NCBI RefSeq assembly: GCF_028736155.1
Contig: NZ_CP117879.1
Span: 3,162,001 to 3,226,000 of the forward strand
DNA length: 64,000 nt
Source of the DNA: Flavobacterium sp. KACC 22763
GTDB lineage: Bacteria > Bacteroidota > Bacteroidia > Flavobacteriales > Flavobacteriaceae
Direction: 5' to 3'
The position numbers and the translations under genes were made by a program. Of this stretch, positions 18,146 through 58,341 are shown piece by piece. Numbering within the stretch: position 1 is the first letter of the stretch; the number at the start of each line of letters is the position of its first letter. The notes under the pieces were generated by a model. It was not told where the DNA came from. It made no database searches and saw nothing but the letters and a program-made list of their open reading frames with translations.

Positions 18146-18180
18146 AACATTCATAACTCATAATTTATAACTTATACTTA
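18146..18180. repeat. Reduplicated-word spacer (ATAACT/TATAACTTATA type)
   Basis: The gap before the ABC-F gene contains a short degenerate repetition of a 'cataact / ataatt / ataactta' word. It is one of several intergenic stretches in this window with a locally repeated word. Confidence 0.4.
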
Positions 18181-18184
18181 CAAA

Positions 18185-20047
18185 GTGAATTACTTATCTG
18201 TAGAAAATATATCAAAGTCATTTGGCGAAAGAGTCCTTTTTGACAACATTTCTTTTGGGATTAATAAAGATCAAAAAATCGCTTTTATCGCAAAAAATGG
18301 TTCTGGAAAAACCACCATAATGAGCATTATTAACGGATTGGAAGAACCAGACACAGGACAAGTTGTTTTAAGGAAAGGAATCAGAATGGCATTTCTTTCG
18401 CAAGACAATAATCTTCAAGATGAACTAACGATTGAAGAAAGTATTTTCGCTTCAGATAATGAAACTTTAAAAGTTATTGAGGCTTATGAAAAAGCTTTAG
18501 AAAATCCTTCAGACGAAGAAGCTTATCAAAAAGCTTTTGATGCTATGGACCAGCATAATGCGTGGGATTTTGAAACACAATACAAGCAGATTTTATTCAA
18601 ATTAAAACTGGAAGATTTTAAACTTAAAGTGAAGAATCTTTCTGGAGGACAGAAAAAACGTCTTTCATTGGCTATAATTCTAATCAACCGTCCAGATTTA
18701 TTGATTTTGGATGAGCCAACCAACCATTTGGATTTAGAAATGATCGAATGGCTTGAAAGTTATTTTGCCAAAGAAAACATTACGCTGTTTATGGTAACGC
18801 ACGACCGTTTCTTTTTGGAGCGTGTCTGCAACGAAATTATCGAATTAGACAACGGAAAACTATATCAATACAAAGGGAACTATTCTTATTACCTTCAGAA
18901 AAAAGAAGAAAGGATCACTTCTGAAAATGCTAGTGTTGACAAAGCAAAAAACCTTTTTGTAAAAGAATTAGAATGGATGCGCCGCCAGCCAAAAGCAAGA
19001 ACAACCAAATCTAAATCGCGTCAGGACGACTTTTACATTATTAAAGAAAAAGCGCAAAGCCGACGAAAAGAAAATAAAGTTGAACTTGAAATTAATATGG
19101 AAAGAATGGGAAGCAAAATTATTGAGCTTCATAAACTTTCTAAAAAATTTAAAGACAGAGTTATTCTTGATAACTTTAGTTTTGATTTCCAACGTGGCGA
19201 AAGAATTGGAATTATTGGTAAAAACGGAACTGGGAAATCTACTTTCTTAAATCTGCTTACAGGAACAATTCCGCCAGACAGTGGTCGCGTTGTAAAAGGT
19301 GACACTATAAAAGTCGGATACTATACACAATCTGGAATTAATCCAAAACCAGGACAGCGCGTTATCGATGTCATTAAAGAATACGGAGAATATATTCCGT
19401 TGGCAAAAGGAAAAATTATTTCGGCCTCTCAACTATTAGAGCGTTTTCTTTTTGATGCTAAAAAACAATATGATTACGTCGAAAAACTGAGCGGAGGTGA
19501 ATTAAAGCGTTTGTATCTATGTACCGTTTTAATTCAGAATCCAAACTTTTTGATTCTGGATGAGCCAACAAACGATTTGGATATTGTAACACTAAACGTT
19601 TTGGAAAGTTTCCTTTTAGATTACCCTGGATGTTTATTGGTAGTTTCTCACGACCGTTACTTTATGGACAAAATTGTCGATCATTTATTTGTTTTTAGAG
19701 GAGACGGAGTTATCGAAAATTTCCCAGGAAACTACTCTGATTTTAGAGCTTACGAAGACAGCGCCGATGTTGCTCAAAAAGAAGAAAACAAAGCCGAAAA
19801 GAAAGATTGGAAACAAAATAATCCGACAGGAAATTTAAGCTTTAACGAACAGAAAGAATATCAGAAAATCGAACGAGAGATTAAAGATCTTGAAGCTGAA
19901 AAAGCTAAAATCGAACAATTATTCTCTGACGGAAAAGTTGCTGATGCCGATATCGAGAAAAAAGCGAACGAACTTCAAAATATAATTAATAAAATAGACG
20001 CTAAAGAAGAACGCTGGTTTGAACTTTCGGCTAAACTTGAGGGATAA
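18185..20047 (+). CDS. ABC-F family ATPase (Uup-like)
   Basis: The 620-residue protein has two ABC ATPase domains: Walker A motifs AKNGSGKTT (36-44) and GKNGTGKST, signatures LSGGQKKRLSLA and LSGGELKRLYLC, and two LILDEPTN(H/D)LD Walker B regions. There are no membrane spans. A charged linker (RRQPKARTTKSKSRQDDF) joins the domains, and the C-terminus is a coiled coil (EIKDLEAEKAKIEQLF) typical of the Uup subgroup. ABC-F proteins act on ribosomes or, for Uup, on replication or recombination intermediates. The start is a GTG; upstream there is no better in-frame ATG. Its stop codon is followed at once by the left repeat arm at 20048. Confidence 0.93.
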   Translation: MNYLSVENISKSFGERVLFDNISFGINKDQKIAFIAKNGSGKTTIMSIINGLEEPDTGQVVLRKGIRMAFLSQDNNLQDELTIEESIFASDNETLKVIEAYEKALENPSDEEAYQKAFDAMDQHNAWDFETQYKQILFKLKLEDFKLKVKNLSGGQKKRLSLAIILINRPDLLILDEPTNHLDLEMIEWLESYFAKENITLFMVTHDRFFLERVCNEIIELDNGKLYQYKGNYSYYLQKKEERITSENASVDKAKNLFVKELEWMRRQPKARTTKSKSRQDDFYIIKEKAQSRRKENKVELEINMERMGSKIIELHKLSKKFKDRVILDNFSFDFQRGERIGIIGKNGTGKSTFLNLLTGTIPPDSGRVVKGDTIKVGYYTQSGINPKPGQRVIDVIKEYGEYIPLAKGKIISASQLLERFLFDAKKQYDYVEKLSGGELKRLYLCTVLIQNPNFLILDEPTNDLDIVTLNVLESFLLDYPGCLLVVSHDRYFMDKIVDHLFVFRGDGVIENFPGNYSDFRAYEDSADVAQKEENKAEKKDWKQNNPTGNLSFNEQKEYQKIEREIKDLEAEKAKIEQLFSDGKVADADIEKKANELQNIINKIDAKEERWFELSAKLEG

Positions 20048-20084
20048 ATTTTTAGTTTTCAGTCGCAGTGACAGTTTTCAGTTT
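20048..20084 (+). repeat. Left inverted-repeat arm flanking the S23 gene
   Basis: This 37-base arm begins at the base after the ABC-F stop codon and ends with CAGTTTTCAGTTT (20072-20084). The reverse complement of those 13 bases recurs exactly at 20507-20519. The outer parts match with gaps and mismatches (ATTTT, AGT, TCAGTC blocks). Confidence 0.8.
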
Positions 20085-20125
20085 TTCTTAAACTGAAAGA
20101 AAAATCCTAATTTAGCAAAAAAAAC

Positions 20126-20491
20126 ATGGATTTTAAAGAATTATTAGCTTATAAGAAGTCATTTGAACTTGCTATGGAAATTTTTGAATTGTCAAAGACG
20201 TTTCCCAAAGAAGAAAAATTTTCTTTAACAGATCAAATACGACGATCATCGAGAAGCGTTAGCGCTAATATTGCTGAGTTCTATAGAAAAAGAAGATATA
20301 CAAATCATTTTATAAGTAAATTAACTGATAGTGATGCTGAAAACTCAGAAACAAATACATGGCTTGAATTTTCATTAGAATGCCAATACATTACAAAAGA
20401 AACATTTGAAAAACTAAATGTTAAAAGTCTTGAAATAGGAAGATTGATAAATTATATGATAAATAATCCAAGTAAGTTTGGTTGTGGATAG
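20126..20491 (+). CDS. Four-helix-bundle protein (S23/23S rRNA intervening-sequence protein family)
   Basis: The 121-residue product is almost all helical and has the family pattern: FKELLAYKKSFELAMEIFEL, then LTDQIRRSSRSVSANIAEFY, and a C-terminal helix ending INYMINNPSK. These proteins were first seen in rRNA intervening sequences and are related to the Avd accessory protein of diversity-generating retroelements. No reverse transcriptase or rRNA is nearby. The gene is the only one inside a pair of inverted-repeat arms (20048-20084 and 20507-20541), wedged between the ABC-F and FKBP genes. An insertion with its repeats is likely; molecular function unknown. Confidence 0.85.
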   Translation: MDFKELLAYKKSFELAMEIFELSKTFPKEEKFSLTDQIRRSSRSVSANIAEFYRKRRYTNHFISKLTDSDAENSETNTWLEFSLECQYITKETFEKLNVKSLEIGRLINYMINNPSKFGCG

Positions 20492-20506
20492 AACTAAGAC
20501 TGGCAC

Positions 20507-20541
20507 AAACTGAAAACTGCGACCGAGACTGAGACTAAAAT
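20507..20541 (-). repeat. Right inverted-repeat arm flanking the S23 gene
   Basis: AAACTGAAAACTG at 20507-20519 is the exact reverse complement of the inner end of the left arm. The remainder (GACCGAGACTGAGACTAAAAT) matches imperfectly. The arms enclose about 420 bases containing only the S23-family gene. Confidence 0.8.
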
Positions 20542-20579
20542 TAATTCTTTATATTTACGACTTTTAAAATAAATACCAC

Positions 20580-21059
20580 ATGAAAAAATTATTAATCGCA
20601 TTATTTACATTGACACTTTTCGTTTCGTGTTCTAGTTCTACTCCTGACGATATCCTACCACCACCAAAGGATTATACGGCACAAAATGATAAAGAAATCA
20701 CTGATTATCTTGCTAAAAACAATTTAACAGCAACAAAAACAAGCACAGGATTATATTACATAATCAAAACAGAAGGCACAGGAAAACAACCAAGTGTACT
20801 ATCTACTGTAACTGTAAAATACAAAGGATACTATACATCTGGCAAAACATTTGACCAAAGCAAAGATGCTGCTGGTGCTACTTTCCCATTAAATAAAGTA
20901 ATTCAAGGTTGGAAAGAAGGAATTCCGTTTTTTAAAGAAGGAGGAACTGGAATTTTGCTAATACCATCACATTTAGGTTATGGAAGTTATGACGATCCAA
21001 GAGGTGTTCCTGCTGGTTCTGTACTTATTTTTGACATTGAACTAATTTCAGTAAACTAA
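20580..21059 (+). CDS. FKBP-type peptidyl-prolyl isomerase lipoprotein
   Basis: The 159-residue protein starts with a lipoprotein signal (LLIALFTLTLFVSCSSS, lipobox Cys17). A short linker precedes an FKBP domain from about residue 60 to the end (VTVKYKGYYTSGKTFDQS, VIQGWKEGIPFF, LIPSHLGYGSYDDP, VPAGSVLIFDIELISV). FKBPs catalyse prolyl cis-trans isomerisation and help fold exported proteins; the lipid anchor places it in the periplasm or at the outer membrane. Some Bacteroidota FKBP lipoproteins (GldI) act in gliding motility, but this one is shorter and nothing in the context supports that role. Confidence 0.9.
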   Translation: MKKLLIALFTLTLFVSCSSSTPDDILPPPKDYTAQNDKEITDYLAKNNLTATKTSTGLYYIIKTEGTGKQPSVLSTVTVKYKGYYTSGKTFDQSKDAAGATFPLNKVIQGWKEGIPFFKEGGTGILLIPSHLGYGSYDDPRGVPAGSVLIFDIELISVN

Positions 21060-21082
21060 TTATTGTACCCTGAAAAGTAAAA

Positions 21083-21862
21083 ATGCTATTTCAAATACAA
21101 TCTTATTTAAAATTTCTTTGGCATTCTAAAAATGAACACGCGGTTCATTCGCCGTTCGTTTTTAGCCTGCTTACCAAATGCTTCTACGATAAGAAATCCA
21201 AACCTGAATATGCAATTCTAAAAAAATACAGAAAAACGCTTTTAGAAAATAAAAACTTTATAGAAGTGACTGATTTTGGAGCAGGATCAAGAGTTTTTAA
21301 ATCAAACAGAAGACAGATTTCTAAAATTGCGCAAACAGCGGGAATTTCGCCAAAACGAGCTGAATTATTGTTTCGAGTTACCAATTATTTTCAGCCAGAA
21401 AACATCCTCGAAATAGGGACTTCTTTAGGCTTAGCAACTTCTGCTTTGGCTTTAGGAAATCCGAAAGCAAAAGTAGTTACAATTGAAGGCTGCCCAAATA
21501 CCGCAAATGTTGCCCAAAATCAATTGGCTGAATTTGATTGTAAGAATGTTGAAAATGTAATTTCTGAATTTGAATCTTTTTTAGTTTCTGAGAACATTCA
21601 AGCCACAAATTACAATCTGATATATTTTGACGGGAATCATTCTAAAAAAGCAACTTTAGCATATTTTGATCTTTTACTGCCAACTATCGACAATGATTCT
21701 GTTTGGATTTTCGACGATATTCATTGGTCTCCCGAAATGGAAGAAGCTTGGGAACTAATTAAAAATCATCCGATGGTAAAAGTCACAATTGATACTTTTC
21801 AATGGGGATTTGTATTCTTTAGAAGAGAACAGCCGAAAGAACATTTTATAATACGAGCATAA
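21083..21862 (+). CDS. Class I SAM-dependent methyltransferase-like protein
   Basis: The 259-residue product has a Rossmann-type methyltransferase core: ILEIGTSLGLATSALAL (motif I), KVVTIEGCPNTANVAQNQL (acidic residue after strand 2), then NLIYFDGNHSKKATLAYFD and SVWIFDDIHWSPEM. The spacing resembles O-methyltransferase-like class I enzymes. The N-terminal 90 residues (HSPFVFSLLTKCFYDKKS) are conserved in related Bacteroidota proteins but do not identify a substrate. It follows the FKBP gene by 23 bases and may be cotranscribed. A bidirectional terminator follows immediately. Confidence 0.8.
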   Translation: MLFQIQSYLKFLWHSKNEHAVHSPFVFSLLTKCFYDKKSKPEYAILKKYRKTLLENKNFIEVTDFGAGSRVFKSNRRQISKIAQTAGISPKRAELLFRVTNYFQPENILEIGTSLGLATSALALGNPKAKVVTIEGCPNTANVAQNQLAEFDCKNVENVISEFESFLVSENIQATNYNLIYFDGNHSKKATLAYFDLLLPTIDNDSVWIFDDIHWSPEMEEAWELIKNHPMVKVTIDTFQWGFVFFRREQPKEHFIIRA

Positions 21863-21892
21863 AAAAAGACGATCAAAAATGATCGTCTTTTT
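21863..21892. terminator. Bidirectional terminator
   Basis: A perfect stem (AAAAAGACGATCA with its mirror, loop AAAA) lies between two convergent genes and has A and T runs at its two ends, so it can serve both strands. Confidence 0.88.
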
Positions 21893-21917
21893 GTTTAATT
21901 GAAAACATATTAAAATC

Positions 21918-22577
21918 TTATTTTTTTGCGTCTTTATTTTCTTCAGACTTCGCTCCCATTCTATTTACAGTATACATTGGTGCAAATTTGATTTTTAAAC
22001 CAGCAATTTTTCGGTTATCTTCTGCCGACAAACCTTCTTTCTCAACTGTATTTTTACGACTATCAAGAGCTTCATACATTAATTTAATTTCATCCCAGTC
22101 TTCTCGAGAATATCTGTCTTTATTATTTTCTACAGTATGAACAAACTGCTGATAAACGCTATGAATATTTTGAGCATTTACCCAACTGAAACTCATATCG
22201 TCACCAATTTTTCCTGCACCAAACAGGGCGTCTCTTAATTGTTGTTTCGGACTAGGAGCTGGAGGGGCAAATTGGGCGGTCATTTCATTTTTAAATTCCT
22301 CGTATTTAATTTTACTTGCATTTACTTTTTCAGTTGCAGCAGCATTATCTTTGATATCTGCTAAAGCAGCTTGCGCTTCCAGAGATCTTCTGTCATATTC
22401 GGCTTCTACACTTTTCCAATTGTCTTTTAAATCGGCTGCTGCCACATTTTTAACAGAATCAACGTAGATTACATAGTTCTCAACTGTTTTTTGAGCTTTT
22501 TCTTGTTTTTCATCTTTACACGATGCAAACCCTAATACTAGTAATGCAATTCCTATAGCTATTTTTATATTTTTCAT
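21918..22577 (-). CDS. DUF6565-like lipoprotein of unknown function
   Basis: The 219-residue product has a lipoprotein signal (GIALLVLGFASCKDEK, Cys20). A long, charged, mostly helical region follows (TVENYVIYVDSVKNVAAADL, YDRRSLEAQAALADIKDNAA), probably coiled coil. It resembles the DUF6565 lipoproteins common in Flavobacteriia. A proline-rich AQFAPPAPSPKQQL segment separates two helical parts. No enzymatic motif is seen. It is a single gene, convergent with the methyltransferase, with about 290 bases of gene-free DNA upstream. Confidence 0.65.
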   Translation of the reverse strand: MKNIKIAIGIALLVLGFASCKDEKQEKAQKTVENYVIYVDSVKNVAAADLKDNWKSVEAEYDRRSLEAQAALADIKDNAAATEKVNASKIKYEEFKNEMTAQFAPPAPSPKQQLRDALFGAGKIGDDMSFSWVNAQNIHSVYQQFVHTVENNKDRYSREDWDEIKLMYEALDSRKNTVEKEGLSAEDNRKIAGLKIKFAPMYTVNRMGAKSEENKDAKK

Positions 22578-22870
22578 AATCTTAGTTATTTAATTAATTT
22601 ATATATCAAATTTACTTAATACCAATTTTAATAAATTACATTATTGTCACATTTTAAAAACAAAAAACATATTAAAACTATAAAACATTAAAAATAATGC
22701 GAATTACACAAAATTAAAACCAAATCATATAACTCTTTTGCTTTTGAAAATCATATTTTATTACTCGTTTCGATACGTTTATTAGCGTAAGTGATTTTGT
22801 AACAAAAACCAATTATCAACTACTTATTCAAAAGTGTTTTGTACTTTTAAATCCAAAATTGTAAACTCAA
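22578..22870. other. Gene-free AT-rich divergent intergenic region
   Basis: About 290 bases separate the divergent lipoprotein and ABC ATPase genes. The sequence is very AT-rich with no ORF, hairpin or repeat that I can support. It must contain promoters for both sides, but no clean TTG / TAnnTTTG pair was found. Confidence 0.4.
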
Positions 22871-23563
22871 ATGGCTGAACCATTAATTAAAATAACCGAC
22901 ATAAAACGAAATTTTACTTTAGGAAACGAAATCGTTTATGTTTTAAAAGGAATAGATCTAGAAATACAAAAAGGCGAATATGTTGCTTTAATGGGGCCTT
23001 CCGGATCAGGAAAATCTACATTAATGAATTTATTAGGCTGTTTAGACACACCAACTTCGGGTCGTTATATTTTAAATGGAAAAGATGTCAGCAAAATGAA
23101 AGATGATGAACTGGCCGAAATTAGAAACAAAGAAATTGGTTTCGTTTTTCAGACCTTCAATCTTTTACCAAGAACTACTGCTTTAGATAATGTTGCCTTG
23201 CCAATGATTTATGCTGGTTATGGAAAATCTGAAAGAATAGCCCGTGCAACCGAAGTTTTAAAACAGGTTAATCTCGCAGACAGAATGGATCACCAGCCAA
23301 ATCAGCTTTCTGGAGGACAGCGCCAGCGTGTTGCAGTCGCAAGAGCTTTAGTAAACAAACCATCGATTATTTTAGCCGATGAGCCAACAGGAAACTTAGA
23401 CAGTAAAACTTCAGTAGAAATCATGAAGCTTTTTGGAGATATTCACGCACAAGGAAATACTGTAATTCTAGTAACTCACGAAGAAGATATCGCTGCTTAT
23501 GCGCATAGAATTATTCGTTTAAGAGATGGACTGATTGAAAGTGACACAAGAAAAACTGTTTAA
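22871..23563 (+). CDS. ABC transporter ATP-binding protein, MacB/LolD type
   Basis: The 230-residue ATPase has Walker [10 protein letters not shown] (42-50), Q-loop region [11 protein letters not shown], signature [15 protein letters not shown], Walker [16 protein letters not shown] and the switch histidine in VILVTHEED. The '[19 protein letters not shown]' segment is typical of the MacB/LolD/FtsE branch, which works with FtsX-like permeases on lipoproteins, peptides or cell-envelope substrates. No permease gene is adjacent, so its partner must be elsewhere. It has a 146-base gap to the adenosyltransferase gene and probably its own transcript. Confidence 0.9.
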
Positions 23564-23667
23564 TCGTTTATTTGATTAATCGTTTAATCGCAAAAGAAAA
23601 CTTATAATTTTAGCACGATCCTAACAGCTTTCGACAAAGCAAAAAAATAAGCTCAAAGAAAGAAAAA

Positions 23668-23703
23668 CTTAGAATCTTAGCATCTCAGAACCTTAGCATC
23701 TTA
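23668..23703. repeat. Solo arm of the CTTAGAATCTTAGCATCT word family
   Basis: This stretch repeats CTTAGAATCTTAGCATCT / CAGAACCTTAGCATCTTA directly before the next start codon. The same words form long inverted repeats at 32672-32756 and 41060-41221 and a solo arm at 45530-45568. Confidence 0.75.
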
Positions 23704-23710
23704 AAAAAAA

Positions 23711-24280: not shown

Positions 24281-24354
24281 ATTTTCTGGAAATTCCAAAG
24301 GAAGAATTAAATTCTTTTCGAATTTAAAAAAAGAAAAAAAACTTCGATTATAAA

Positions 24355-24450
24355 TTGGAGTTTGGAGTTTAAGTCACTGGTATTCAAAGGCTTTTTATTG
24401 GAATTTGGAATTTAAATTTTGGGATTTAAAATTCATTTTTGGGATTTAAA
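24355..24450. repeat. Reduplicated-word spacer (GGAGTTT / GGAATTT / GGGATTTAAA)
   Basis: The gap between the adenosyltransferase and DUF2795 genes contains TTGGAGTTTGGAGTTTAAG, then GGAATTTGGAATTTAAATT and two copies of GGGATTTAAA. It is a locally repeated word unlike those in other gaps. No ORF of note is present. Confidence 0.6.
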
Positions 24451-24492
24451 AAGAGACGTTCTTAAATTTTATTAAAATAAATCAAAATTTAC

Positions 24493-24522
24493 TTGTCTTT
24501 TTCAGTAAAAAATTTATTTTTG
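24493..24522 (+). promoter_or_regulatory. Promoter for the DUF2795 gene
   Basis: TTG at 24493-24495 and TATTTTTG at 24515-24522 are 19 bases apart, an excellent match to the Bacteroidota promoter. The start codon follows at 24544. Confidence 0.7.
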
Positions 24523-24543
24523 CACAAACTAAACAGATAACAG

Positions 24544-24765: not shown

Positions 24766-24780
24766 AAAATAAACCAAAGG

Positions 24781-24810
24781 AAAAAGTCTCTCATCATAGA
24801 GACTTTTTTT
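24781..24810 (+). terminator. Intrinsic terminator between DUF2795 gene and secA
   Basis: AAAAAGTCTCT and its mirror form an 11-base-pair stem with loop CATCAT, followed by a T run. It lies 15 bases after the DUF2795 stop. Confidence 0.88.
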
Positions 24811-24853
24811 TTGGTTCAAATACATATTATATAATAAAGAAATACAATAAATC

Positions 24854-28754: not shown

Positions 28755-28815
28755 AAGTCTTAACTATAAGACTTACAGTTCATAGCTTACGGCGTATTGC
28801 CTATAGCTTACAGCT
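28755..28815. repeat. Reduplicated-word spacer (CTTA.AG / CATAGCTTAC type) with small hairpin
   Basis: The gap contains a perfect 8-base-pair hairpin AAGTCTTA-ACTA-TAAGACTT (28755-28774). This is followed by repeated words TTACAGTTCATAGCTTAC and CCTATAGCTTACAGCTT. Confidence 0.6.
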
Positions 28816-28834
28816 TTAATTTATATAATTCAAA

Positions 28835-32671: not shown

Positions 32672-32756
32672 TTTTAAGATGCTAAGTTGCTAAGATTCTG
32701 AGATACTAAGTTTTTTTCTTAGAACCTTAGAATCTTAGCATCTTAGAACCTTAAAA
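32672..32756. repeat. Long imperfect inverted repeat, 39-base arms (CTTAGAATCTTAGCAT family)
   Basis: Arms 32672-32710 and 32718-32756 match at 33 of 39 positions around a loop of seven T residues. The sequence fills nearly the whole gap between the convergent PepSY and TrmH genes and starts 1 base after a stop codon. It can act as a bidirectional terminator, but it is far longer than needed and its arms consist of repeated CTAAG/ATCTTAG words. Confidence 0.9.
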
Positions 32757-41059: not shown

Positions 41060-41221
41060 GTTTCTGAGATGCTGAGATGCTGAGATTCTAAGTTTTTCTC
41101 TTGCCTCTTTTTAAACTTTCGTAAAAAGTAAAGCGCTAAGATTTCATTATGAAATCTTAGCGCTTTTTATATTCATTATTTTGAAAAAACTTAGAATCTT
41201 AGCATCTCAAAACTTAGAAAC
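41060..41221. repeat. Nested inverted repeats (CTTAGAATCTTAGCAT family)
   Basis: Outer arms 41060-41097 and 41185-41221 match over about 31 of 38 positions with one gap. They enclose a perfect 17-base-pair hairpin (separate entry). The outer arms use the same CTTAGAATCTTAGCATCT words as 32672-32756. The left arm starts at the base after the antiporter stop codon. Confidence 0.88.
41130..41166. terminator. Perfect 17-bp hairpin, bidirectional terminator
   Basis: AAAGCGCTAAGATTTCA (41130-41146) and its exact reverse complement (41150-41166) with loop TTA lie between convergent genes, with A and T runs outside. Confidence 0.85.
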
Positions 41222-41229
41222 TCAGAATA

Positions 41230-44884: not shown

Positions 44885-45526
44885 ATGAAAATCGCACTTA
44901 TTGGAGCTACAGGATTTGTTGGCTCAGCAATTTTAAATGAATTAGCAGACAGAAAACATGAAATTACTGCTATTGCAAGGACTCCAAAAGATACAGCAAA
45001 CGCAACTTGGGTTGCTGCAGATATTTTTAATGTTGATGCTCTGGCAGAAATCTTAAAAGGTCACGATGCTGTTGTTAATGCTTATAACCCAGGATGGACT
45101 AATCCTAATATTTACGATGACTTTTTAGCAGGTTCAAAAGCTATTCAGGAAGCGGTTAAAAAATCAGGCGTTAAACGTTTCATCACAATTGGTGGAGCTG
45201 GAAGTTTATATGTTGCTCCAGATTTGCAAGCCGTTGATACTCCAGATTTTCCAAAAGAGATTTTCCCTGGGGCCAATGCTGCAAGACATTATTTAAATAT
45301 TATTAAAGAAGAAAAAGATTTAGATTGGGCATTCTTTAGTCCTGCTTTCGAAATGCACGCTGGAACCAAAACAGGAAGAACTGGAAAATACCGTTTAGGT
45401 TTAGAAAATCCTGTTTTTAATGACGAACAAAGAAGTATTTTATCTGTAGAAGATTTGGCTGTTGTTATTACTGATGAAGTAGAAACTCCAAAACACCATC
45501 AAGTTAGATTTACAGCTGGATATTAA
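44885..45526 (+). CDS. NAD(P)-binding SDR-like oxidoreductase
   Basis: The 213-residue product begins with a dinucleotide-binding motif MKIALIGATGFVGSAILNEL. It continues as an atypical SDR/NmrA-like fold (DAVVNAYNPGWTNPN, VKRFITIGGAGSLYV, LDWAFFSPAFEMHAGT). The usual Tyr-x-x-x-Lys pair is not evident, typical of the YwnB/NmrA-like group that binds NAD(P)H as regulators or quinone reductases. It follows the Rrf2 gene and is likely its target. Confidence 0.85.
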   Translation: MKIALIGATGFVGSAILNELADRKHEITAIARTPKDTANATWVAADIFNVDALAEILKGHDAVVNAYNPGWTNPNIYDDFLAGSKAIQEAVKKSGVKRFITIGGAGSLYVAPDLQAVDTPDFPKEIFPGANAARHYLNIIKEEKDLDWAFFSPAFEMHAGTKTGRTGKYRLGLENPVFNDEQRSILSVEDLAVVITDEVETPKHHQVRFTAGY

Positions 45527-45529
45527 TTC

Positions 45530-45568
45530 TTTTAAGATGCTAAGGTTCTGAGATTCTCAGCTACTAAG
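45530..45568. repeat. Solo arm of the CTTAG word family
   Basis: This 39-base stretch is close in sequence and identical in length to the left arm at 32672-32710, but no partner arm follows it. Confidence 0.75.
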
Positions 45569-50394: not shown

Positions 50395-51516
50395 TTGTCA
50401 AATTCTAATAAACAAACTGGCAGTATATCTGAAAAAGCTGGAATTTCACCTCCTGAAATCACCAATATTGCGGCTATCAATCAAATTAAAAGCAAACGCA
50501 GACAACAGCCCACTTCTCAAGAATTAATTGATGGTATTTTAGAAGGAAACAGAACTTCTCTTAGCCGCGCGATTACTTTAATTGAAAGCACCAATCCAGA
50601 CCATTTTGATAAAGCTGGCGAAGTGATTCAAGGCTGTTTAGCTCATGCCAATAAATCAGTTCGAATTGGAATCACGGGAGTTCCCGGAGTTGGAAAAAGT
50701 ACTTTTATTGAAGCTTTTGGAAAACATCTGACACAATTAGGAAAAAAAGTAGCAGTTTTGGCAGTTGACCCAAGCAGTTCGCTTTCGCATGGAAGTATTC
50801 TCGGTGACAAAACCCGAATGGAAGAATTGGTAAAAGATGAAAATGCTTTTATTCGTCCAAGCGCTTCTGGAGAAACTTTAGGCGGTGTGGCTCGCAAAAC
50901 CAGAGAAACCATTATTCTTTGCGAAGCGGCAGGTTTTGATACTATTATAATCGAAACAGTCGGTGTTGGCCAAAGTGAAACCGCTGTTCACAGCATGGTC
51001 GATTTCTTTTTGCTTTTAAAGATTTCTGGCGCTGGCGACGAACTTCAAGGCATTAAACGCGGTATTATGGAAATGGCAGACGCTATTGTCATTAACAAAG
51101 CTGACGGCGATAATATAAAAAAGGCCAATCAGGCGAAATTGGAATTTAATCGCGCTTTGCATTTATTTCCTCCAAAAAAATCAAACTGGCAACCTAAAGT
51201 AACTACTTGCAGTTCGCTGATAAAAGATGGCATTGCGGAAGTTTGGAATACTATTTCTGATTATTTTGAAATGACAAAAGAAACTGGATTCTTCCAAGAA
51301 AAAAGAAATGAACAAAATCATTTCTGGATGATGGAAACCATCAACGAACAGCTTAAACAAAATTTCTATAATCAACCAGAAATAATTTCGCTTTTAGAAG
51401 AAAGCAAAAAAGCAGTGCAAAATAATGAGATTTCATCTTTTGCAGCTGCTGCTGAGTTATTAAAATTGTATTTTAATAAAGGTGCAAAGGCTCAAAGTGA
51501 CAAAGGTTCAAAGTAG
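50395..51516 (+). CDS. meaB: MeaB/ArgK-type GTPase for methylmalonyl-CoA mutase
   Basis: The 373-residue G3E GTPase has Walker A GVPGVGKST (95-103), the family block VDPSSSLSHGSILGDKTRME, DTIIIETVGVGQSE and the base-specificity region VINKADGDN. MeaB protects and reloads B12-dependent mutases and gates cofactor transfer from adenosyltransferases such as the PduO protein at 23711. The start is a TTG; no ATG is available before the conserved region. The last twelve residues (KGAKAQSDKGSK) are encoded by the left arm of the inverted repeat at 51481, so the C-terminus is of repeat origin. Mutase genes are outside the window. Confidence 0.92.
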   Translation: MSNSNKQTGSISEKAGISPPEITNIAAINQIKSKRRQQPTSQELIDGILEGNRTSLSRAITLIESTNPDHFDKAGEVIQGCLAHANKSVRIGITGVPGVGKSTFIEAFGKHLTQLGKKVAVLAVDPSSSLSHGSILGDKTRMEELVKDENAFIRPSASGETLGGVARKTRETIILCEAAGFDTIIIETVGVGQSETAVHSMVDFFLLLKISGAGDELQGIKRGIMEMADAIVINKADGDNIKKANQAKLEFNRALHLFPPKKSNWQPKVTTCSSLIKDGIAEVWNTISDYFEMTKETGFFQEKRNEQNHFWMMETINEQLKQNFYNQPEIISLLEESKKAVQNNEISSFAAAAELLKLYFNKGAKAQSDKGSK

Positions 51517-51675
51517 AAAAAGTCGCTTTGCTCCTTTTAATTCCTCAATAATCTCGATACACAATCTTGTCAGTTCGAGCGGAGTCGAGAACCCGCAAAG
51601 CATTTCAATTTCTCTAAAAAGAAAAAGGTTCAAAGTAAAAACCTTTGAACCTTTGTAACTATGAACCTTTAAACC
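51481..51675. repeat. Inverted repeat, AAAGGTTCAAAG family, left arm inside coding sequence
   Basis: The left arm 51481-51513 and the reverse complement of 51643-51675 match at 28 of 33 positions. The left arm is read as the final codons of the MeaB gene, and the right arm touches the stop codon of the convergent sulfatase-like gene. A perfect 11-base-pair hairpin (AAGGTTCAAAG) overlaps the right side near 51626-51654. A GTTCGAGCGGAGTCGAGAAC element lies between at about 51574. Confidence 0.9.
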
Positions 51676-53612
51676 TATTTCTTAGGCCTAAGCTTATATT
51701 TACTCTCTTTATACAAATTTCCTGCTGTAATCACATGTGCTAAAGCATCTTTTGCTAAATCTTCGTTCAGTTTTACAGGAACTAATGTTGTATCATTTTT
51801 GATTTCAAATTGCAATGGTTTCAAATTTGGCTGCATGATCACAACTTGATTCTCAACTCTAAATGCATTGATATCATTAAACTGCATAATAGATCTTCCT
51901 TGCACTTTCGGATCCAATTTACTTAGGTTTCTACCTACCATTGGAGTTTCAAACGGAAGTCCTAAATAGCTTAACAATGTAGGCGGAATATCAATCTGAC
52001 TTGCCAATCTGTCATAAACAGCTCCTTTTGGAACTCCAGGTCCCATAATAAATGCTGGAATATGGAATTTATTAATTGGAACTAAATTTTTACCGTAAGT
52101 TCTGGTATTGTGATCAGCAATTACAATAAAAATCGTGTTTTTAAAATACGGTTCTTTTTTAGCCATTTCAAAGAATTTTCCAATTGAGAAATCGGCATAT
52201 TTCATGGCATTATTTACTGTATTAGGCTTTTTATCATAAGGCTTAATTCTTCCTGTTGGATATTCAAATGGTTCGTGATTTGAAGTCGAGAACATTAAAG
52301 AGAAAAATGGTTTGTCTCCTTTTGATTTGAAATACTGATTGGCTTTTGTAACCAAATCTTCATCAGAATAGCCCCAAGTTCCTTTGAAAGCATATTTATT
52401 TCCATCAGACTCAAAATCACTTTGGTCTACGATGTCTGTAAAACCATTTCCGTTGAAAAACGAAGCCATATTATCAAAATTCGCCATTCCACCATAAATG
52501 AAACTTGTATCGTAACCTTTTTGTTTTAATGCGTCTGCCAATGTAAAAAATCCTTGTTGTGAATTTCCAAGCTTCACTACACTTTCTGATGGCGAAGGCA
52601 AAAATCCAGTTACTACCGCTTCAATTCCACGCACACTTCTAGTTCCTGTGCAATATAAATTGGTAAACAGTAATCCTTCTTTAGACAATTTATCAAATTC
52701 TGGAGTTAATGGTTTTCCTCCTAAAATTCCAACGTACTCTGCACCTAAACTCTCTTGTAGAAAGATCACCAAATTGTATGGCTTTTTCATAACAGAATCT
52801 GGTTGCTGCACATGTAAAAACGGAATTTCTTTATCTGTAAAATCACTTGGACCAGCGATCATGTATTTTTTTACACGAGCAATAGCTTCGGCCTCATCCA
52901 TTTTACCATACATTTTGGTATTTCCTTCATTTTTGATCGAATACGCCGCAAAAGCAACGGTATAAAATGAATTTAACCCTAAAGTATTTGTAAGCTGATC
53001 TGTTGAGAAAACAGCATTACTAGCATTAATTGGACGCTTTGAAGTCAAACTTGAACGTGCTCCGAAAAACAATAAAAAAGCTACTAATGGGAATACCATT
53101 AATTTGAATTTATATTCTGTACTTGTAGTATAAAATAATTGTTTCCCTTTTTTGAAAGCAAAATAAATTACAACTCCAAGAATTAGAAAAGTCACAATGA
53201 TTGAAGTCAGATAACTTTTTAAAAGCATTCCAACCACTTCTTTTGGATAAATAAGATAGTCTAAGAAAATCTTATTCGGACGAGTATCATATTGTTTTAC
53301 AAAATCTGGAGAAGCTAATTCTACAAAAAGAATTAAAAACAGAAATAGAAAACTATAAATTACCAGAAATTTATTGGTAAACTTTATCGCCTTATTCGGC
53401 AAAAAAGTGATTAACAATGCTGGAAGAAACGACAAATAACAAAGCAATATCAAATCCATTCGAAGACCGATTGGAAAAATATACCAGAAATCTGGCGTCT
53501 GCACTACTCTTTCTTTAAAAAGAAAAAACAGAAAGATTCGGCTTAAAGTGGTAATCAATAATCCGATCAATATAAAACTGAAAATAGGTTTTAAGAAACG
53601 TAAATTTTTCAT
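51675..53612 (-). CDS. LTA-synthase-like membrane sulfatase family protein
   Basis: The 645-residue protein has five N-terminal membrane helices (FSFILIGLLITTLSRIFLFFL, YLSFLPALLITFLP, and others) and a periplasmic alkaline-phosphatase-fold domain. This shows NLVIFLQESLGAEYVGILGG, LYCTGTRSVRGIEAVVTGFL (Thr nucleophile), SLMFSTSNHEPFEYP and FIVIADHNTRTYGK (metal ligands). This is the topology of lipoteichoic acid synthases and the related phosphoglycerol transferases. Gram-negative organisms have no LTA, so it probably modifies a periplasmic glycan or lipid with a phosphoglycerol or phosphoethanolamine group. It is followed downstream by the inverted repeat at 51481-51675. Confidence 0.88.
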   Translation of the reverse strand: MKNLRFLKPIFSFILIGLLITTLSRIFLFFLFKERVVQTPDFWYIFPIGLRMDLILLCYLSFLPALLITFLPNKAIKFTNKFLVIYSFLFLFLILFVELASPDFVKQYDTRPNKIFLDYLIYPKEVVGMLLKSYLTSIIVTFLILGVVIYFAFKKGKQLFYTTSTEYKFKLMVFPLVAFLLFFGARSSLTSKRPINASNAVFSTDQLTNTLGLNSFYTVAFAAYSIKNEGNTKMYGKMDEAEAIARVKKYMIAGPSDFTDKEIPFLHVQQPDSVMKKPYNLVIFLQESLGAEYVGILGGKPLTPEFDKLSKEGLLFTNLYCTGTRSVRGIEAVVTGFLPSPSESVVKLGNSQQGFFTLADALKQKGYDTSFIYGGMANFDNMASFFNGNGFTDIVDQSDFESDGNKYAFKGTWGYSDEDLVTKANQYFKSKGDKPFFSLMFSTSNHEPFEYPTGRIKPYDKKPNTVNNAMKYADFSIGKFFEMAKKEPYFKNTIFIVIADHNTRTYGKNLVPINKFHIPAFIMGPGVPKGAVYDRLASQIDIPPTLLSYLGLPFETPMVGRNLSKLDPKVQGRSIMQFNDINAFRVENQVVIMQPNLKPLQFEIKNDTTLVPVKLNEDLAKDALAHVITAGNLYKESKYKLRPKK

Positions 53613-53649
53613 TAAAAATAGTATAAGAACGTGAGATTAGAAAAACAAA

Positions 53650-53877
53650 TTACTCTTCGTAACGGTTAATTTCTCTGTCATAAAACTCATTAGCTTTTTC
53701 AATTAAACTTTCCATTTCGGCGTTTAATTCAGCTTCATCAAGATCATCTGGTTCTTCTAAAAACTCAACCTCATCATCTTTCAAATTGATAATGAATCTT
53801 GGGTAATCTAGGTGAATGATAAAAATATCGTCTGGAAAATCAGTGTTATCTCCAAGTAAAAATTTAGGTAATTCCAT
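53650..53877 (-). CDS. Small acidic protein of unknown function
   Basis: The 75-residue product starts MELPKFLLGDNTDFPDDIFI, has a short beta-like part (IIHLDYPRFIINLKDDEVEF) and an acidic helical tail (LDEAELNAEMESLIEKANEF). I recognise it only as a type of short conserved protein frequent in Flavobacteriia. No enzymatic or DNA-binding motif is visible. It is 37 bases upstream of the sulfatase-like gene on the same strand and probably shares its transcript. Confidence 0.7.
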   Translation of the reverse strand: MELPKFLLGDNTDFPDDIFIIHLDYPRFIINLKDDEVEFLEEPDDLDEAELNAEMESLIEKANEFYDREINRYEE

Positions 53878-53908
53878 ATCTATTTATTTTTTTTAATGGT
53901 TATTTTTT

Positions 53909-53971
53909 AGCCACAGATTATACAGATTAAAAGGATTTCTCCTGACTTTAGACTTTATGATCTTTGACTTG
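53909..53971. repeat. Reduplicated-word spacer (GCCACAGATT and GACTTTAGACTTT)
   Basis: It contains AGCCACAGATTATACAGATT, which shares words with 30998-31059 and 58320-58340, followed by GACTTTAGACTTTATGATC / TTTGACTTG, another locally repeated word. Confidence 0.6.
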
Positions 53972-53984
53972 TTTTTATTCAAAT

Positions 53985-55370
53985 TTAGTTATTTGAAACT
54001 GACTTGGTAATCAATTTCTTTGTTAAGTAATGAAAACGAATGTATAAACAAATTGCCGCTGCGGTTAAACCTGCCAAAAGTCCGATCCAAACTCCTTGCG
54101 CCTTTAATTCGGTGTGTTCTCCTAAATAATACGAAATCGGAAAACCAATAACCCAATAGGCCACAAAAGTAATGTACATTGGTACTTTTACATCCTGCAA
54201 TCCGCGCAATGCTCCTAAAACCACAACTTGTATTCCGTCAGAAATCTGGAAAATTGCTGCAATTAAAAGCAGTTTTGAAGCAATTCCTATCACTTCTTCG
54301 TTATCTAAAATTTGTCCTGTATTTTCCATATTCAAGAAAATATATGGCAGATAGTCGTGGAAAACGATAAAGAAAATCGCAAAAATGGTTTCTAAAATTA
54401 TAGCAAGCAAAAAGATAGAACGTGCCACAACAATTAGTTTTTTATAATCCATCAAACCTCTCTGATTGCTGACACGAACCATAGAAGTAACGCTTAATCC
54501 CATTGCAAACATAAAAGTCATCGATGCCAAACTCAAAGCAATTTGATTTGCCGCCTGACTTGTTTTTCCAATATTCCCACAAAGCCAGATAGAGGCTGTA
54601 AATAAAACCACCTCAAAAAGCATCTGCATTGCAGAAGGAAATCCGATGCTGATAATCTTATTTATAGTTGCCTTTTTTATTTCATTAAAACTAAATCCTT
54701 TAAAAAAGCGCTTTAAATCATCTCTTCTCGAAAGCATAATATGCATGAACATTACCAAAAATATTCTTGAAATCACCGTTCCTAAAGCAGCGCCGATAAT
54801 TCCCATTTTTGGAAAAATCCAAATTCCGTAAATTAAAACATAGTTTATACCAACGTGAAGAACGTTTGCCATTACCATGGCATACATAGAATATTTGGTT
54901 AATGACATTCCGTCTGCAAACTGTTTATATCCCTGATACATTACCAACGGAATTAGAGAAAAAGCCACCCAGCCTAAATAAGGTTTTGCTAATACAATAA
55001 CATCTGCTGGCTGTTTCAGCAATTCCATTATTGGTTTGGCAAACATAATTACCGTAAAAAGCACCACTCCTAAAATGGTACAAAGAAATAATCCATGATG
55101 AAAAGCAGAGCGAATTTTAGTGTCATTTTTCTCAGCATCACCTTCTGCAACAATTGGCGTAATAGCTGTAGAAAACCCAATCCCTAAAGACATGGCGATA
55201 AAAATCATACTATTTCCAAGCGAAACCGCCGCTAGTTCTGTGCTTCCTATTTTACCAACCATTATATTATCGACAATACCAATTAAGGTATGTCCGACCA
55301 TTCCTAAAATAACAGGATATGCCAGTCTTAAATTATACGAAAACTCTTTAGTGTACTGCTTTAAATTCAC
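53985..55370 (-). CDS. MATE family efflux transporter
   Basis: With a GTG start at 55370 the product has 461 residues and begins MNLKQYTKEFSYNLRLAYPV, the usual start of this group. The frame is open for 24 more codons upstream (to 55442), but those residues do not resemble a MATE N-terminus. About 12 spans are seen, with conserved HTLIGIVDNIMVGKIGSTEL, LGIGFSTAITPIVAE, and in the second half NQIALSLASMTFMFAMGLS and GALRGLQDVKVPMYITF. MATE proteins exchange cationic drugs or metabolites for Na+ or H+. It is a single gene; the substrate is unknown. Confidence 0.92.
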   Translation of the reverse strand: MNLKQYTKEFSYNLRLAYPVILGMVGHTLIGIVDNIMVGKIGSTELAAVSLGNSMIFIAMSLGIGFSTAITPIVAEGDAEKNDTKIRSAFHHGLFLCTILGVVLFTVIMFAKPIMELLKQPADVIVLAKPYLGWVAFSLIPLVMYQGYKQFADGMSLTKYSMYAMVMANVLHVGINYVLIYGIWIFPKMGIIGAALGTVISRIFLVMFMHIMLSRRDDLKRFFKGFSFNEIKKATINKIISIGFPSAMQMLFEVVLFTASIWLCGNIGKTSQAANQIALSLASMTFMFAMGLSVTSMVRVSNQRGLMDYKKLIVVARSIFLLAIILETIFAIFFIVFHDYLPYIFLNMENTGQILDNEEVIGIASKLLLIAAIFQISDGIQVVVLGALRGLQDVKVPMYITFVAYWVIGFPISYYLGEHTELKAQGVWIGLLAGLTAAAICLYIRFHYLTKKLITKSVSNN

Positions 55371-55559
55371 TTCTATTCTATTTTGTGCGCAAAGATAGTC
55401 AGAAGCTTCGAATTCTATCCTATCTATAAAAATATATCCCAATTTTAAGACAAAAATAAGATGAACTAAATATTATGTAACGATTTTTAAAAATTGTATA
55501 ACAAACTCCAAATGGCTTGCATATAATTTTACATCATAGAAATTTCAAAAATATAAGCC

Positions 55560-56078
55560 ATGAAAAAATTACAGATGTTATGCCTAGCTGCTTTCACATT
55601 TTTATTCGCCAACACCACATTTGCTCAAGAGACAGAAGCAACAAATTACGATCAAGGTTTTAGATTAGGTTTTGGCTTAAATGGGGGATTGCCAACCGAC
55701 AATGATTACGACTGGTCTCTTGGGGGAGATGTTCGTTTACAGTATGATCTTTCCAAAAAAACATCGTTGACCTTAACAACAGGTTTTACGAATTTATTTA
55801 TGGGAAAAGACGATCTTGGAAATGACATAAAAGATCTTGGATTTATTCCGGCCAAAGCAGGTTTTAAAGCTTTTGTCTTAAAAGATCAATTTTATGTTTT
55901 AGGAGAACTGGGTGCTGGTTTTGCTGTAACAAATGGGTACAATCAAACCACATTTTTATGGGCTCCAGGAATTGGTTATGCCAACAAATACATTGATTTA
56001 AGTGTTCGTTACGAAGATTATCATGATTTTAGAACCAATCAGGTAGCATTGCGTGTTGCTTATGGTTTTCAACTCTAA
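55560..56078 (+). CDS. Small outer membrane beta-barrel protein
   Basis: The 172-residue product has a signal peptide (MLCLAAFTFLFANTTFAQE). Alternating beta strands follow (GFRLGFGLNGGLPTDNDYDW, DVRLQYDLSKKTSLTLTTGF, YIDLSVRYEDYHDFRTNQVA), ending with the aromatic strand LRVAYGFQL, whose final residue is Leu. It resembles eight-stranded OmpA/OmpW-like barrels of unknown function. A terminator follows at once, so it is monocistronic. Confidence 0.7.
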   Translation: MKKLQMLCLAAFTFLFANTTFAQETEATNYDQGFRLGFGLNGGLPTDNDYDWSLGGDVRLQYDLSKKTSLTLTTGFTNLFMGKDDLGNDIKDLGFIPAKAGFKAFVLKDQFYVLGELGAGFAVTNGYNQTTFLWAPGIGYANKYIDLSVRYEDYHDFRTNQVALRVAYGFQL

Positions 56079-56111
56079 AAAATAGGTTTAATTTATTATT
56101 TTGTTTTTGGT

Positions 56112-56148
56112 AAAAACCCGATAGTCTAAATAGTCTGTCGGGTTTTTT
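56112..56148 (+). terminator. Terminator, CCCGA.AG / CTGTCGGG family
   Basis: AAAAACCCGATAG pairs imperfectly with CTGTCGGGTTTTTT around a 9-12 base loop. Its outer stem resembles those at 28231 and 59563. Confidence 0.8.
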
Positions 56149-56244
56149 ATTTTATACCATTGGTCAAAAGAAAAGTGCTAGTAGTCAAATGATTTTTTGG
56201 GATTGATTTAGAACGCGGTAATTCGCAGAAAAATTAATCAAATC

Positions 56245-57180
56245 ATGAACAAAACAGTTTTTTATCTTTCGCAGCTTTTTCTTTTTTTACTGGCTACCCT
56301 TGCTGCACGCTCACAATCTGGAATTTCAGGTGAATTCAAGGTCGATTATGTCCCTTTTTCTAAATATGTACGACCAATGGACAGCACAAAAACAAATGCC
56401 GAAAGCAATTTTAAAAGAGCGCAATTGGCTTTTGAAGTTCCGCTATCTTTAAAAATGGACAAATACGATCATCCAAAACTCTGGTCAGTATTTTTTAGTG
56501 GCAGTTATGCCAAAATGGAAAACAGAAACTATAATATTCAAGATCTTCCCGCAGCATTTCAAGGCGGATTTCCAGATGAATTGCTCAATACACAAATTGG
56601 AATCAAGCATTTGCGTTCCATTTCTTCTTCGTGGTCGCTGTTAATAATGGCTTCTGTAGGCGTTTATACAGATATGGTTGAAATTAATAAAGACGATGTC
56701 CTGCTTCAAGGTGGAATTCTTTTTATCAAACAATTTAATCCTAAACTGGCTTTGGGTGCAGGTCCAGTTCTGACTAATAGTTTTGGTGTACCGATGGTTC
56801 TTCCTGGAATTTATTTTAACTGGGAATCTACAGGAGCTTTACATTTTAAAGTTGCTTTTCCAGAAGGTGTAGAAATTGGCTATCGAATGTCTGATACTTT
56901 TGACTTAAAAGCAGTAGCCGAAATAAGCGGAATGACAGCTGAAACCAAAATTGGAAATAAATCTACACTACTTGGATATCAGCAAATAATTGCAGGCTTA
57001 AGACCTCAGATGAAATTTGGAAAGCATTGGATTTTAGAACCAACTGGAGGAACTACTCTTCTTCGTAGTTTTTCGACAACAAACCGAAAAATTAAAGAAA
57101 TTTTCAAGGAAAAAGATATTGCCGATCCAAGATTCACCACTACGTTTTATGGAGCAATAGCGCTGAAATGGAAATTCTAG
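56245..57180 (+). CDS. DUF6268-like outer membrane protein
   Basis: The 311-residue protein has a signal peptide (LFLFLLATLAARSQSG) and a beta-strand-rich body (GEFKVDYVPFSKYVRPMDST, LWSVFFSGSYAKMENR, QKIGIK-like strands), ending FYGAIALKWKF with a C-terminal Phe, as in outer membrane barrels. The N-terminal 'VDYVPFS.......NAESNFKRAQLAFEVPL' pattern is that of DUF6268 proteins, which I associate with Bacteroidota. It is convergent with and two bases from the LytTR regulator gene. A functional link to that regulator is possible but not shown. Confidence 0.7.
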   Translation: MNKTVFYLSQLFLFLLATLAARSQSGISGEFKVDYVPFSKYVRPMDSTKTNAESNFKRAQLAFEVPLSLKMDKYDHPKLWSVFFSGSYAKMENRNYNIQDLPAAFQGGFPDELLNTQIGIKHLRSISSSWSLLIMASVGVYTDMVEINKDDVLLQGGILFIKQFNPKLALGAGPVLTNSFGVPMVLPGIYFNWESTGALHFKVAFPEGVEIGYRMSDTFDLKAVAEISGMTAETKIGNKSTLLGYQQIIAGLRPQMKFGKHWILEPTGGTTLLRSFSTTNRKIKEIFKEKDIADPRFTTTFYGAIALKWKF

Positions 57181-57182
57181 AG

Positions 57183-57896
57183 CTACCTGCTTAATAAGTT
57201 TTTATAGACTACCTCTTTCAATAATTCCTCACGGCGAGTTCTTGAAATAGGTAGTTCTTGTCCTTTTATAAATAAACGTCCGCCAGAAATAGAATCTATA
57301 TGCGTAACATTTACGAGAAATGATTTATGGATTCGAAAGAAAATTTCTTTGGGAAGTGTTTCTTCTAATGAAATCATCGTTTGATGAATAATCAGCACTT
57401 TATCTTTAAAATGAAGCTTTGCATAATTTTGCATTCCTTCGATATACAAAATATCTATCCAAGAAATTTTCTGAAATCCTTCTTCCTGACGCACATATAA
57501 AAACGGATCCAATTGATTTTGCTTCGGAGAGTTAATCATCTGATGCCATTGCTTAGCTTTTAAAGAAGCTTGATAAAATCGTTGAAACGTAATAGGTTTT
57601 AATAAATAATCTACCACCTGCAAACGATATCCATCTAAAGCATGTTCTGAATAAGCGGTTGTAAAAATCACTAAAGGCGGATTTTCTAATGATTCCAGAA
57701 ACTCCAATCCCGTAAGATAAGGCATATTGATATCCAGAAACATCAAATCAATTTGCTTTTCCTGAAGAAACGAAGTCGCTTCTAGAGCAGAAGCACAAGT
57801 ACCAATAGTTTCAAGGAAATCAATTTTAGAAACAAAATCTGCTATTCCGTTTCTTGCTATAGGTTCATCGTCGATAATGAGACATTTCATTTTCAT
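57183..57896 (-). CDS. LytTR-type response regulator
   Basis: The 237-residue protein has a receiver domain with DDE (9-11), the phosphorylation site Asp55 (LMFLDINMPY) and the conserved TTAYSEHALDGY/K regions. A LytTR DNA-binding domain covers about 130-235 (RQEEGFQKISWIDILYIEGM, RIHKSFLVNVTHIDSISGGR, LPISRTRREELLKEV). It is the cognate regulator of the histidine kinase at 58342-59391. The two genes are on the same strand but are separated by 445 bases of repeat DNA, so they may be expressed independently. Target genes unknown. Confidence 0.93.
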   Translation of the reverse strand: MKMKCLIIDDEPIARNGIADFVSKIDFLETIGTCASALEATSFLQEKQIDLMFLDINMPYLTGLEFLESLENPPLVIFTTAYSEHALDGYRLQVVDYLLKPITFQRFYQASLKAKQWHQMINSPKQNQLDPFLYVRQEEGFQKISWIDILYIEGMQNYAKLHFKDKVLIIHQTMISLEETLPKEIFFRIHKSFLVNVTHIDSISGGRLFIKGQELPISRTRREELLKEVVYKNLLSR

Positions 57897-58341
57897 AGTT
57901 TTTTTTCTGGTTTGTGTGTGTGTTTATTTCTCGCAGATTTGGCAGATTTAGCAGATTTTTTCTTTAACCGCAAAGAACGCAATCCCGATAGCTATCGGGA
58001 TACGCAAAGCTCGCAAAGTTTTAATTTTTTAAAAGGATGCTAAGATCACAAAGCATTGCGGATTAAAATTTGTGCTAATTTGGGTAATTTGCGGTTAAAA
58101 TAAAATCCTTTTTAATCTTTATATCCCGATAGCTATCGGGAGTGGCTAAAAATTTTAACGCAAAGAACACAATCCCGATAGCTATCGGGATACGCAAAGT
58201 TCGCAAAGTTTTAATTTTTAAAAGGATGCTAAGAGCACAAAGCAATATGTTAAGATTTTGAAGATTAAAAATTCGTGCTAATTCGTGTAATTCGTGGCTA
58301 AAATAAAATCATTTTTAATCTTTATAATCTGTGGCTAAAGT
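57897..58341. repeat. Duplicated ~190-base repeat unit with CCCGATAGCTATCGGG palindromes
   Basis: Two diverged copies lie in tandem, roughly 57964-58150 and 58155-58341. Each has CGCAAAGAAC, then the 20-base palindrome centred on CCCGATAGCTATCGGG (57982-58001 and 58172-58191), TACGCAAAG, CGCAAAGTTTTAATTTTT, AAAAGGATGCTAAGA and a tail in TTTTTAATCTTTAT. A third palindrome lies at 58123-58141 and a TTTGGCAGATTTAGCAGATTT word run precedes them near 57937. No gene is present. Confidence 0.85.

Follow-up and report, generated by a model that had tools for sequence, protein, structure and literature searches.

Gaps between genes in a 64,000-nucleotide (nt) stretch of the Flavobacterium sp. KACC 22763 genome (the window; bases 3162001-3226000 of 5.56 Mb) hold short words repeated imperfectly, and the window includes a gene of the S23 (23S rRNA IVP) family with such repeats on either side. 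Most S23 genes in our sample are bracketed by outward-pointing arrays of a 7-8 nt word, which consists of a 4-5 nt core and a spacer. S23 subfamilies differ in the word they carry, and close S23 relatives have it in common even in other phyla; solo arrays with the same words directly adjoin stop codons or, in fewer cases, start codons. We consider a link between S23 and the words very likely, and we lean, with some reserve, towards reading the reduplicated words as arms of S23 elements, together with solo sites of the same kind, that would be the ligand of S23.

Results

The window S23 gene (20126..20491, + strand) encodes a 121-amino-acid protein of a predicted four-helix bundle family, matching PF05635 with 108.7 bits (cut-off 33.8) and PF22296 (bAvd) with 44.6 bits (cut-off 40); no Pfam family beyond IVP and bAvd matched it, hence it has no Pfam transposase domain. 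Upstream lies an arm of five CAGT-type units (TAGT, CAGT, CAGT, CAGT, CAGT; 20052..20084, - strand) in a gap with a shuffle p of 0.02, and downstream, inverted relative to it, an arm of five ACTG-type units (ACTG, ACTG, ACCG, ACTG, ACTA; 20509..20537, + strand), and the locus passes the array test. The score of the downstream gap was reached by 0/200 shuffles, the automatic chain there comprising seven units from 20493.

Eight PF05635 genes above the cut-off are present in the genome, the window S23 among them. By eye, reduplicated words stand on both sides of all eight; seven distinct words occur, of which two are alike, the close paralogs L004 and L005 share one, and L006 and L007 have words in either orientation. 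All eight loci pass the array test, in which the chain-of-cores score has to lie above the 99th percentile of a pool of dinucleotide shuffles (8 per locus). So do 90 of the 101 S23 loci in the genus and, in a scan across bacteria, 53 of 80 loci, or 48 of 73 when Flavobacterium is left out by title. Control genes from array-rich stretches of this genome passed a lower bar in 55/276 cases, and the strictest bar (11.6) was passed by 4/276 controls, one of which is the window S23 itself, versus 36/101 S23 loci. Clean arms of five units on both sides were found in Acidobacteria (L268, AACTGag), Thiohalocapsa (L262, CCACTaa), Clostridiaceae (L259, CCCTGtt) and Deltaproteobacteria (L243, TACTGgc/ac). 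A first-pass annotation of the window, made from its sequence, had merely guessed at a connection to S23, and this is now strongly supported by the flanking words, the array test and the match between word and protein.

Word and protein diverge together. Word similarity climbs with protein identity in the 53 scan loci (Mantel r 0.23, permutation p 0.0005), and the correlation also holds in all 146 loci that pass the array test. With the S23 of locus L001 as the reference, each of the 22 other passing S23s with at least 59% identity carries period-8 words of the CTTAG/CTTTG/CTCAG/CTCTG type; these proteins come from Flavobacterium, Sphingobacterium, Aquimarina, Nitrospirae, Syntrophaceae and Lambdaproteobacteria. 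S23s just under 59% identity mostly have different words with a period of 7, and L209, a close L001 relative that narrowly fails the array test, has the same kind of words as L001 by eye. At the fourth core position, most of 24 loci of this type have either A throughout or T throughout both arms (two are mixed, 3:5), and the distribution of this letter on the protein tree needs two switches versus 7.4 in shuffles. Fourteen alignment columns separate the main A and T clades, and only positions 86 (V counted with I) and 109, found through a column scan, agree with every one of the seven outlying proteins as well, two of these being A-word proteins that stand apart on the tree. As a lead, residues 86 and 109 appear to track the core letter in these 24 proteins. 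A strict word-for-word match of an S23 locus with the solo arrays of its own genome was rejected, as the share of CTTAG set against S23 identity to L001 gave a weak trend (Spearman 0.32, p 0.03, 46 genomes).

Gene and arms are also present or absent together. Among 30 orthologues of the L001 gap inspected by eye, 17 contain S23 with word arms, 11 contain neither, one contains a decayed copy and one (G047) a different S23 and word, and the comparison suggests that this gap is a favoured site. The G047 gene (L207) has GTTTAAA words and occupies the gap that holds an L001-type S23 elsewhere. Insertion of S23 into ready-made arrays was rejected, CTTAG/CTTTG arms being kept, by eye, in 0 of the 11 S23-less gaps. 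The TrmH gap (32672), compared by eye where the left neighbour is the same, has CTTAG arms in G000, G057, G031 and G005, CGCAAAG words in G051 and GGTTAGG words in G025. A survey of 199 genomes of the genus scored cognate S23 as present where a close L001 relative was found at E<=1e-40, with 10 weak cases set aside. The median number of CTTAG plus CTTTG matches is 63 in the 65 genomes with cognate S23 versus 2 in the 124 without it (p 4e-20), an association that is seen within four size classes and is uncorrected for kinship.

Within the genome studied here, the CTTAG triple-core pattern CTTAGnnnCTTAGnnnCTTAG has 112 matches versus 21 for a backwards-read control, TTGGAATTTGGAATT has 139, and both words are found again in related genomes. 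CTTAG alone accounts for four of the sites in the first-pass annotation, which had proposed that each gap holds a word of its own. The genome-wide counts rule this out: the repeats are a few word families common to the whole genome and not private to gaps.

Unit number was counted in sampled parts of the genome for CTTAG-type arrays (CT[TCA][AT]G, period 8) aligned at the first full unit. Of 116 arrays, 87% have the CT anchor of the core at unit 4, 59% have it at unit 5 and 5% at unit 6; 61 arrays have exactly five anchors, 52 have fewer and three have more. Degenerate forms (CTTAA, CTTTA) are usual at the fifth unit. Among 47 arms belonging to close relatives of the L001 S23 gene, 30 have exactly five units, 16 have fewer and one has more. 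Five is the commonest count for all S23 arms, except on the downstream side of the scan set, where it is one behind four. The per-word count in solo arrays covered seven of twelve words, and a ceiling at five units is firm for the CTTAG word only.

The 62 unique CTTAG arms form 18 inverted pairs in the stretches read, a count that misses partners with fewer than four units. Left and right spacers in these pairs match at 0.469 versus 0.486 for shuffled partners, and their cores at 0.931 versus 0.932. Spacer strings are identical between sites in 4 pairs versus 1.85 expected. Spacers in this genome are neither paired nor shared beyond chance, and the arms therefore look like independent sites of one word. 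Spacer letters, when counted, are mostly A at one position and never G at another. In a list of 45 arms, 30 face a stop codon and 15 a start codon; the distance from arm end to codon is at most 15 nt for 24 of the former, some of which supply the stop themselves, and for 7 of the latter.

Two further S23 loci, L072 and L068, have arrays that by eye seem to lengthen the frame upstream of S23, the stop codon coming from the word; the gene beside them is presumably hemB. Arrays near S23 genes may be mistaken for repeats of the clustered regularly interspaced short palindromic repeats (CRISPR) kind. In PMC10910872, 23S rRNA IVP is named in the legend of a figure of CRISPR-linked proteins.

Words in the window gaps were assessed by comparing the chain-of-cores score with that of dinucleotide shuffles in the 36 gaps of at least 50 nt, whose borders were set by the chosen reading frames, the MeaB frame being ended by hand at 51470. 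Thirteen gaps reached p<=0.05 (1.8 expected) and seven p<=0.01, and the repeats are real and above chance. The 13 include those at 18146, 20048, 20492, 23668, 28755, 32672, 41060 and 51481. The gap sequences contain reduplicated words where the first-pass annotation had placed them, and its observation was confirmed in part: gaps 24355 and 45530 do not pass when scored whole, and gaps 53909 (p 0.04) and 57960 (p 0.045) are marginal, with the test choosing other words than those named before. The long imperfect inverted arms (34-39 nt) that it had described were found as well, measuring 39 nt at 85% (32672), 34 nt at 85% (51480) and 39 nt at 74% (57944).

CTTAG-type arrays in the window occur as single arms and as inverted pairs. 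A solo single arm of five CTTAGnnn units (23668..23706, + strand) lies 3 nt 5' of the ATG of the next gene, and a second solo arm of five CTTAG-type units (45530..45568, - strand) directly adjoins the stop of the gene that ends at 45526, although the gap that contains it fails the whole-gap test. The solo pair at 32672 has five CTTAG units in each arm and a 7-nt loop; its left arm (32672..32710, - strand) and right arm (32718..32756, + strand) end at the stop codons of the left gene and of TrmH, respectively. Another left arm (41064..41094, - strand), which reads CTGAG/CTAAG on the + strand, faces a right arm with one spacing shift (41190..41228, + strand). CTTTG arms comprise a left arm of five units (51477..51513, - strand), read as the C-terminal tail of the MeaB frame, and a right arm of four units plus a CT half-unit (51643..51676, + strand). 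The array as translated into the MeaB tail (51477-51516) is NKGAKAQSDKGSK.

Other words are represented by about four ATAACTT-type units (18151..18178, + strand; p 0.01), by CTTACAG/CTATAG-type words (28785..28819, + strand; p 0.005) and by GGAGTTT/GGAATTT words (24355..24445, + strand), which show two clean units at a time and then diverge in a gap that is not significant as a whole; this last word is that of the arms of the S23 gene L007 in the same genome. A 20-nt perfect palindrome, ATCCCGATAGCTATCGGGAT, occurs at 57982-58001, 58122-58144 and 58172-58191, two copies being perfect and enclosed by stretches of CGCAAAG words in a gap that is partly duplicated, and the third slightly different. 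The sole Rfam match of the window is a Flavo-1 RNA (RF01705; 60558-60701, - strand), away from the words.

Discussion

According to PMC4990558, S23 proteins have no known function, and the Xanthomonas S23p structure was solved as a homopentameric toroid. The PDB relatives of S23, 2rld and 2gsc, have five chains per entry. We infer that S23 is a homopentameric ring and propose that each array is a five-site ligand wound round it, one word per subunit, as RNA is wound round TRAP. Recognition of the arrays by S23 is probable, judging from sequence patterns, while the assignment of one word to each subunit of the pentamer could equally be right or wrong. Recognition would preserve the words, which would explain the fixed cores and free spacers, the joint change of word in the arms, and the joint gain and loss of arms and gene. 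RNA is a likelier ligand than DNA. Binding at the edge of a reading frame would most likely take place on RNA, both on the message of S23 itself and on the solo sites, where S23 might protect, process or block the RNA; the edge position suggests RNA ends or translation start. The element may also have a selfish role, and the purpose of binding is the weakest link of the proposal.

More tentatively, and with somewhat less than an even chance of being right, S23 could be a large family found throughout bacteria in which each ring reads its own word, five words per ring, with ring and word co-evolving via a few residues (86 and 109 being the first candidates). Several protein-word pairs per genome, with dozens to hundreds of solo sites at the ends of genes, would then constitute parallel post-transcriptional regulons or self-spreading marks, and this would be new. 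For proteins lacking a known function (PMC4990558), the proposal makes a sharp prediction of the ligand, namely the five-word arm of each S23 gene. It further predicts a stoichiometry of one word per pentamer subunit, names candidates for the residues that determine the word, and maps possible targets. If true, it would explain a class of repeats that is found in the gene gaps of many Flavobacterium genomes and around S23 genes in other phyla.

Several observations weigh against recognition of the words by S23. The array test is failed by 11 of the 101 genus loci and 27 of the 80 scan loci. Counts of 3-7 units are common in S23 arms and a few arrays reach 16-19, and the solo GGAATTT elements of this genome have two clean units, no five-unit rule being found for them. 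In a set of 24 S23 loci taken from many genomes, left and right spacers match at 0.50 versus 0.396 for shuffled partners, the shuffles mixing genomes of different spacer make-up, and successive spacers inside one arm match at 0.417 versus 0.343. The match within loci could come from pairing, from inverted copying or from a locus-specific word make-up, and slippage may contribute as well. Well-supported branches of the protein tree force just one switch of the fourth core letter, and co-inheritance alone could produce the congruence of protein and word.

The genome survey has exceptions of its own. At least 10 matches occur in 14 of the 124 genomes without cognate S23, and fewer than 5 in 8 of the 65 with it. 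G044 was filed as lacking S23 by the E cut-off, yet it has both gene and arms, and G161 (3.1 Mb), one of the 14, has 82 CTTTG and 114 GGAATTT matches without a close L001-type S23, so that orphan arrays could be tested there. GGAATTT, an unrelated word, is associated with group-1 S23 too (t 5.1 once size is allowed for, 2.8 once CTTAG/CTTTG counts are), whereas the CTTAG/CTTTG association retains t 6.8 when GGAATTT is allowed for. The genome-level link therefore has a specific part and a part that is general array richness or kinship.

Among other explanations, a selfish hairpin like the intervening sequence (IVS) of 23S ribosomal RNA (rRNA) would make the arms a long RNA stem cut by RNase III, with S23 in the loop and the words as a by-product. 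The layout is that described in PMC4990558, an S23 open reading frame with an inverted-repeat stem that is excised by RNase III in vitro, and the match of spacers within loci across genomes agrees with it. We find it unlikely, as single arms exist (23668, 45530), just 18 inverted pairs were formed by the 62 arms (short partners being missed), arms that form pairs in this genome show no greater complementarity than unrelated ones, and a stem requires neither a repeated word nor a ceiling at five. Non-autonomous mobile elements, similar to miniature inverted-repeat transposable elements (MITEs) or repetitive extragenic palindromic (REP) sequences and spread by S23 or a host enzyme with the solos as dead or dependent copies, would account for the dispersal, for presence and absence at orthologous gaps and for the different S23 family in the same gap of G047. 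This is quite unlikely, since solo CTTAG arrays share words and not spacers and so are not recent copies, and since the window S23 has no transposase domain among its Pfam matches.

Ordinary terminators, or elements of messenger RNA 3' ends in AT-rich genomes, with no relation to S23, would fit the crowding of stop-facing arms near stop codons and the hairpin-capable pairs between convergent genes, but they leave unexplained the S23 flanks across phyla, the match of word and protein, and the joint presence of arms and gene, and single arms cannot form a hairpin; we judge them very unlikely. The cause put forward in the first-pass annotation was slippage with inversion; read as replication slippage and hairpin-templated inversion, it would leave a functionless mutational by-product. 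Slippage does appear to operate in the minority of arrays with 9-19 copies, and the likeness of successive spacers and the spacer match within the 24 S23 loci point the same way. As a general cause it is not supported and is highly improbable: CTTAG-type arrays stop at five (3/116 above), the same words recur at many sites, and the arms of the 18 pairs in this genome are not inverted copies of each other, their spacers being no more complementary than shuffled ones. A process like that of diversity-generating retroelements, with S23 acting as Avd while a reverse transcriptase rewrites the words, is almost certainly wrong. PF05635 is noted as resembling Avd in PMC10053308 and the bAvd match is just above its cut-off, but the spacer letters are non-random. 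Rewriting by a reverse transcriptase was rejected, since no RVT_1 match was found in this genome by a search that was positive in 3/14 controls.

Comparison with known systems

Recognition of word arrays by an S23 ring has a working analogy in TRAP, an oligomeric ring whose number of subunits equals the number of short (G/U)AG RNA repeats in its ligand, spaced 2-3 free nucleotides apart. No family claim is intended: TRAP is an unrelated protein, its number is eleven and not five, the word here differs between paralogs, and binding by S23 is predicted. REP sequences with their REP-associated tyrosine transposases (RAYTs), and bacterial interspersed mosaic elements (BIMEs), offer a similar picture of repeats scattered between genes, with inverted arms close to stop codons and with copies that flank a gene. 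Here the flanked gene belongs to PF05635 and is not a Y1 (HUH) transposase (RAYT genes elsewhere in the genome were not searched for), and the copies share a word and not a sequence. The copies of a MITE are likewise sequence copies, and CTTAG spacers here are not shared beyond chance. Avd of diversity-generating retroelements belongs to a related four-helix bundle family (PF22296 match; PMC10053308), and no RVT_1 match was found in this genome.

In the open-access literature, as covered by titles and the starts of abstracts and with most subscription papers outside it, no paper was found that links word arrays outside rRNA to S23. The closest known arrangement is the 23S rRNA IVS of Leptospira and Coxiella, and PMC4990558 describes three to four tandem heptamers 5' of the S23p start codon in the Coxiella IVS. 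As in those elements, the S23 open reading frame studied here lies within an inverted repeat. The window S23 is situated between protein frames and not inside a 23S rRNA gene, Flavo-1 being the only Rfam match in the window. Its arms, unlike those of the rRNA elements, are arrays of words, often of five units, and in this genome solo arrays are dispersed and the words differ between S23 paralogs.

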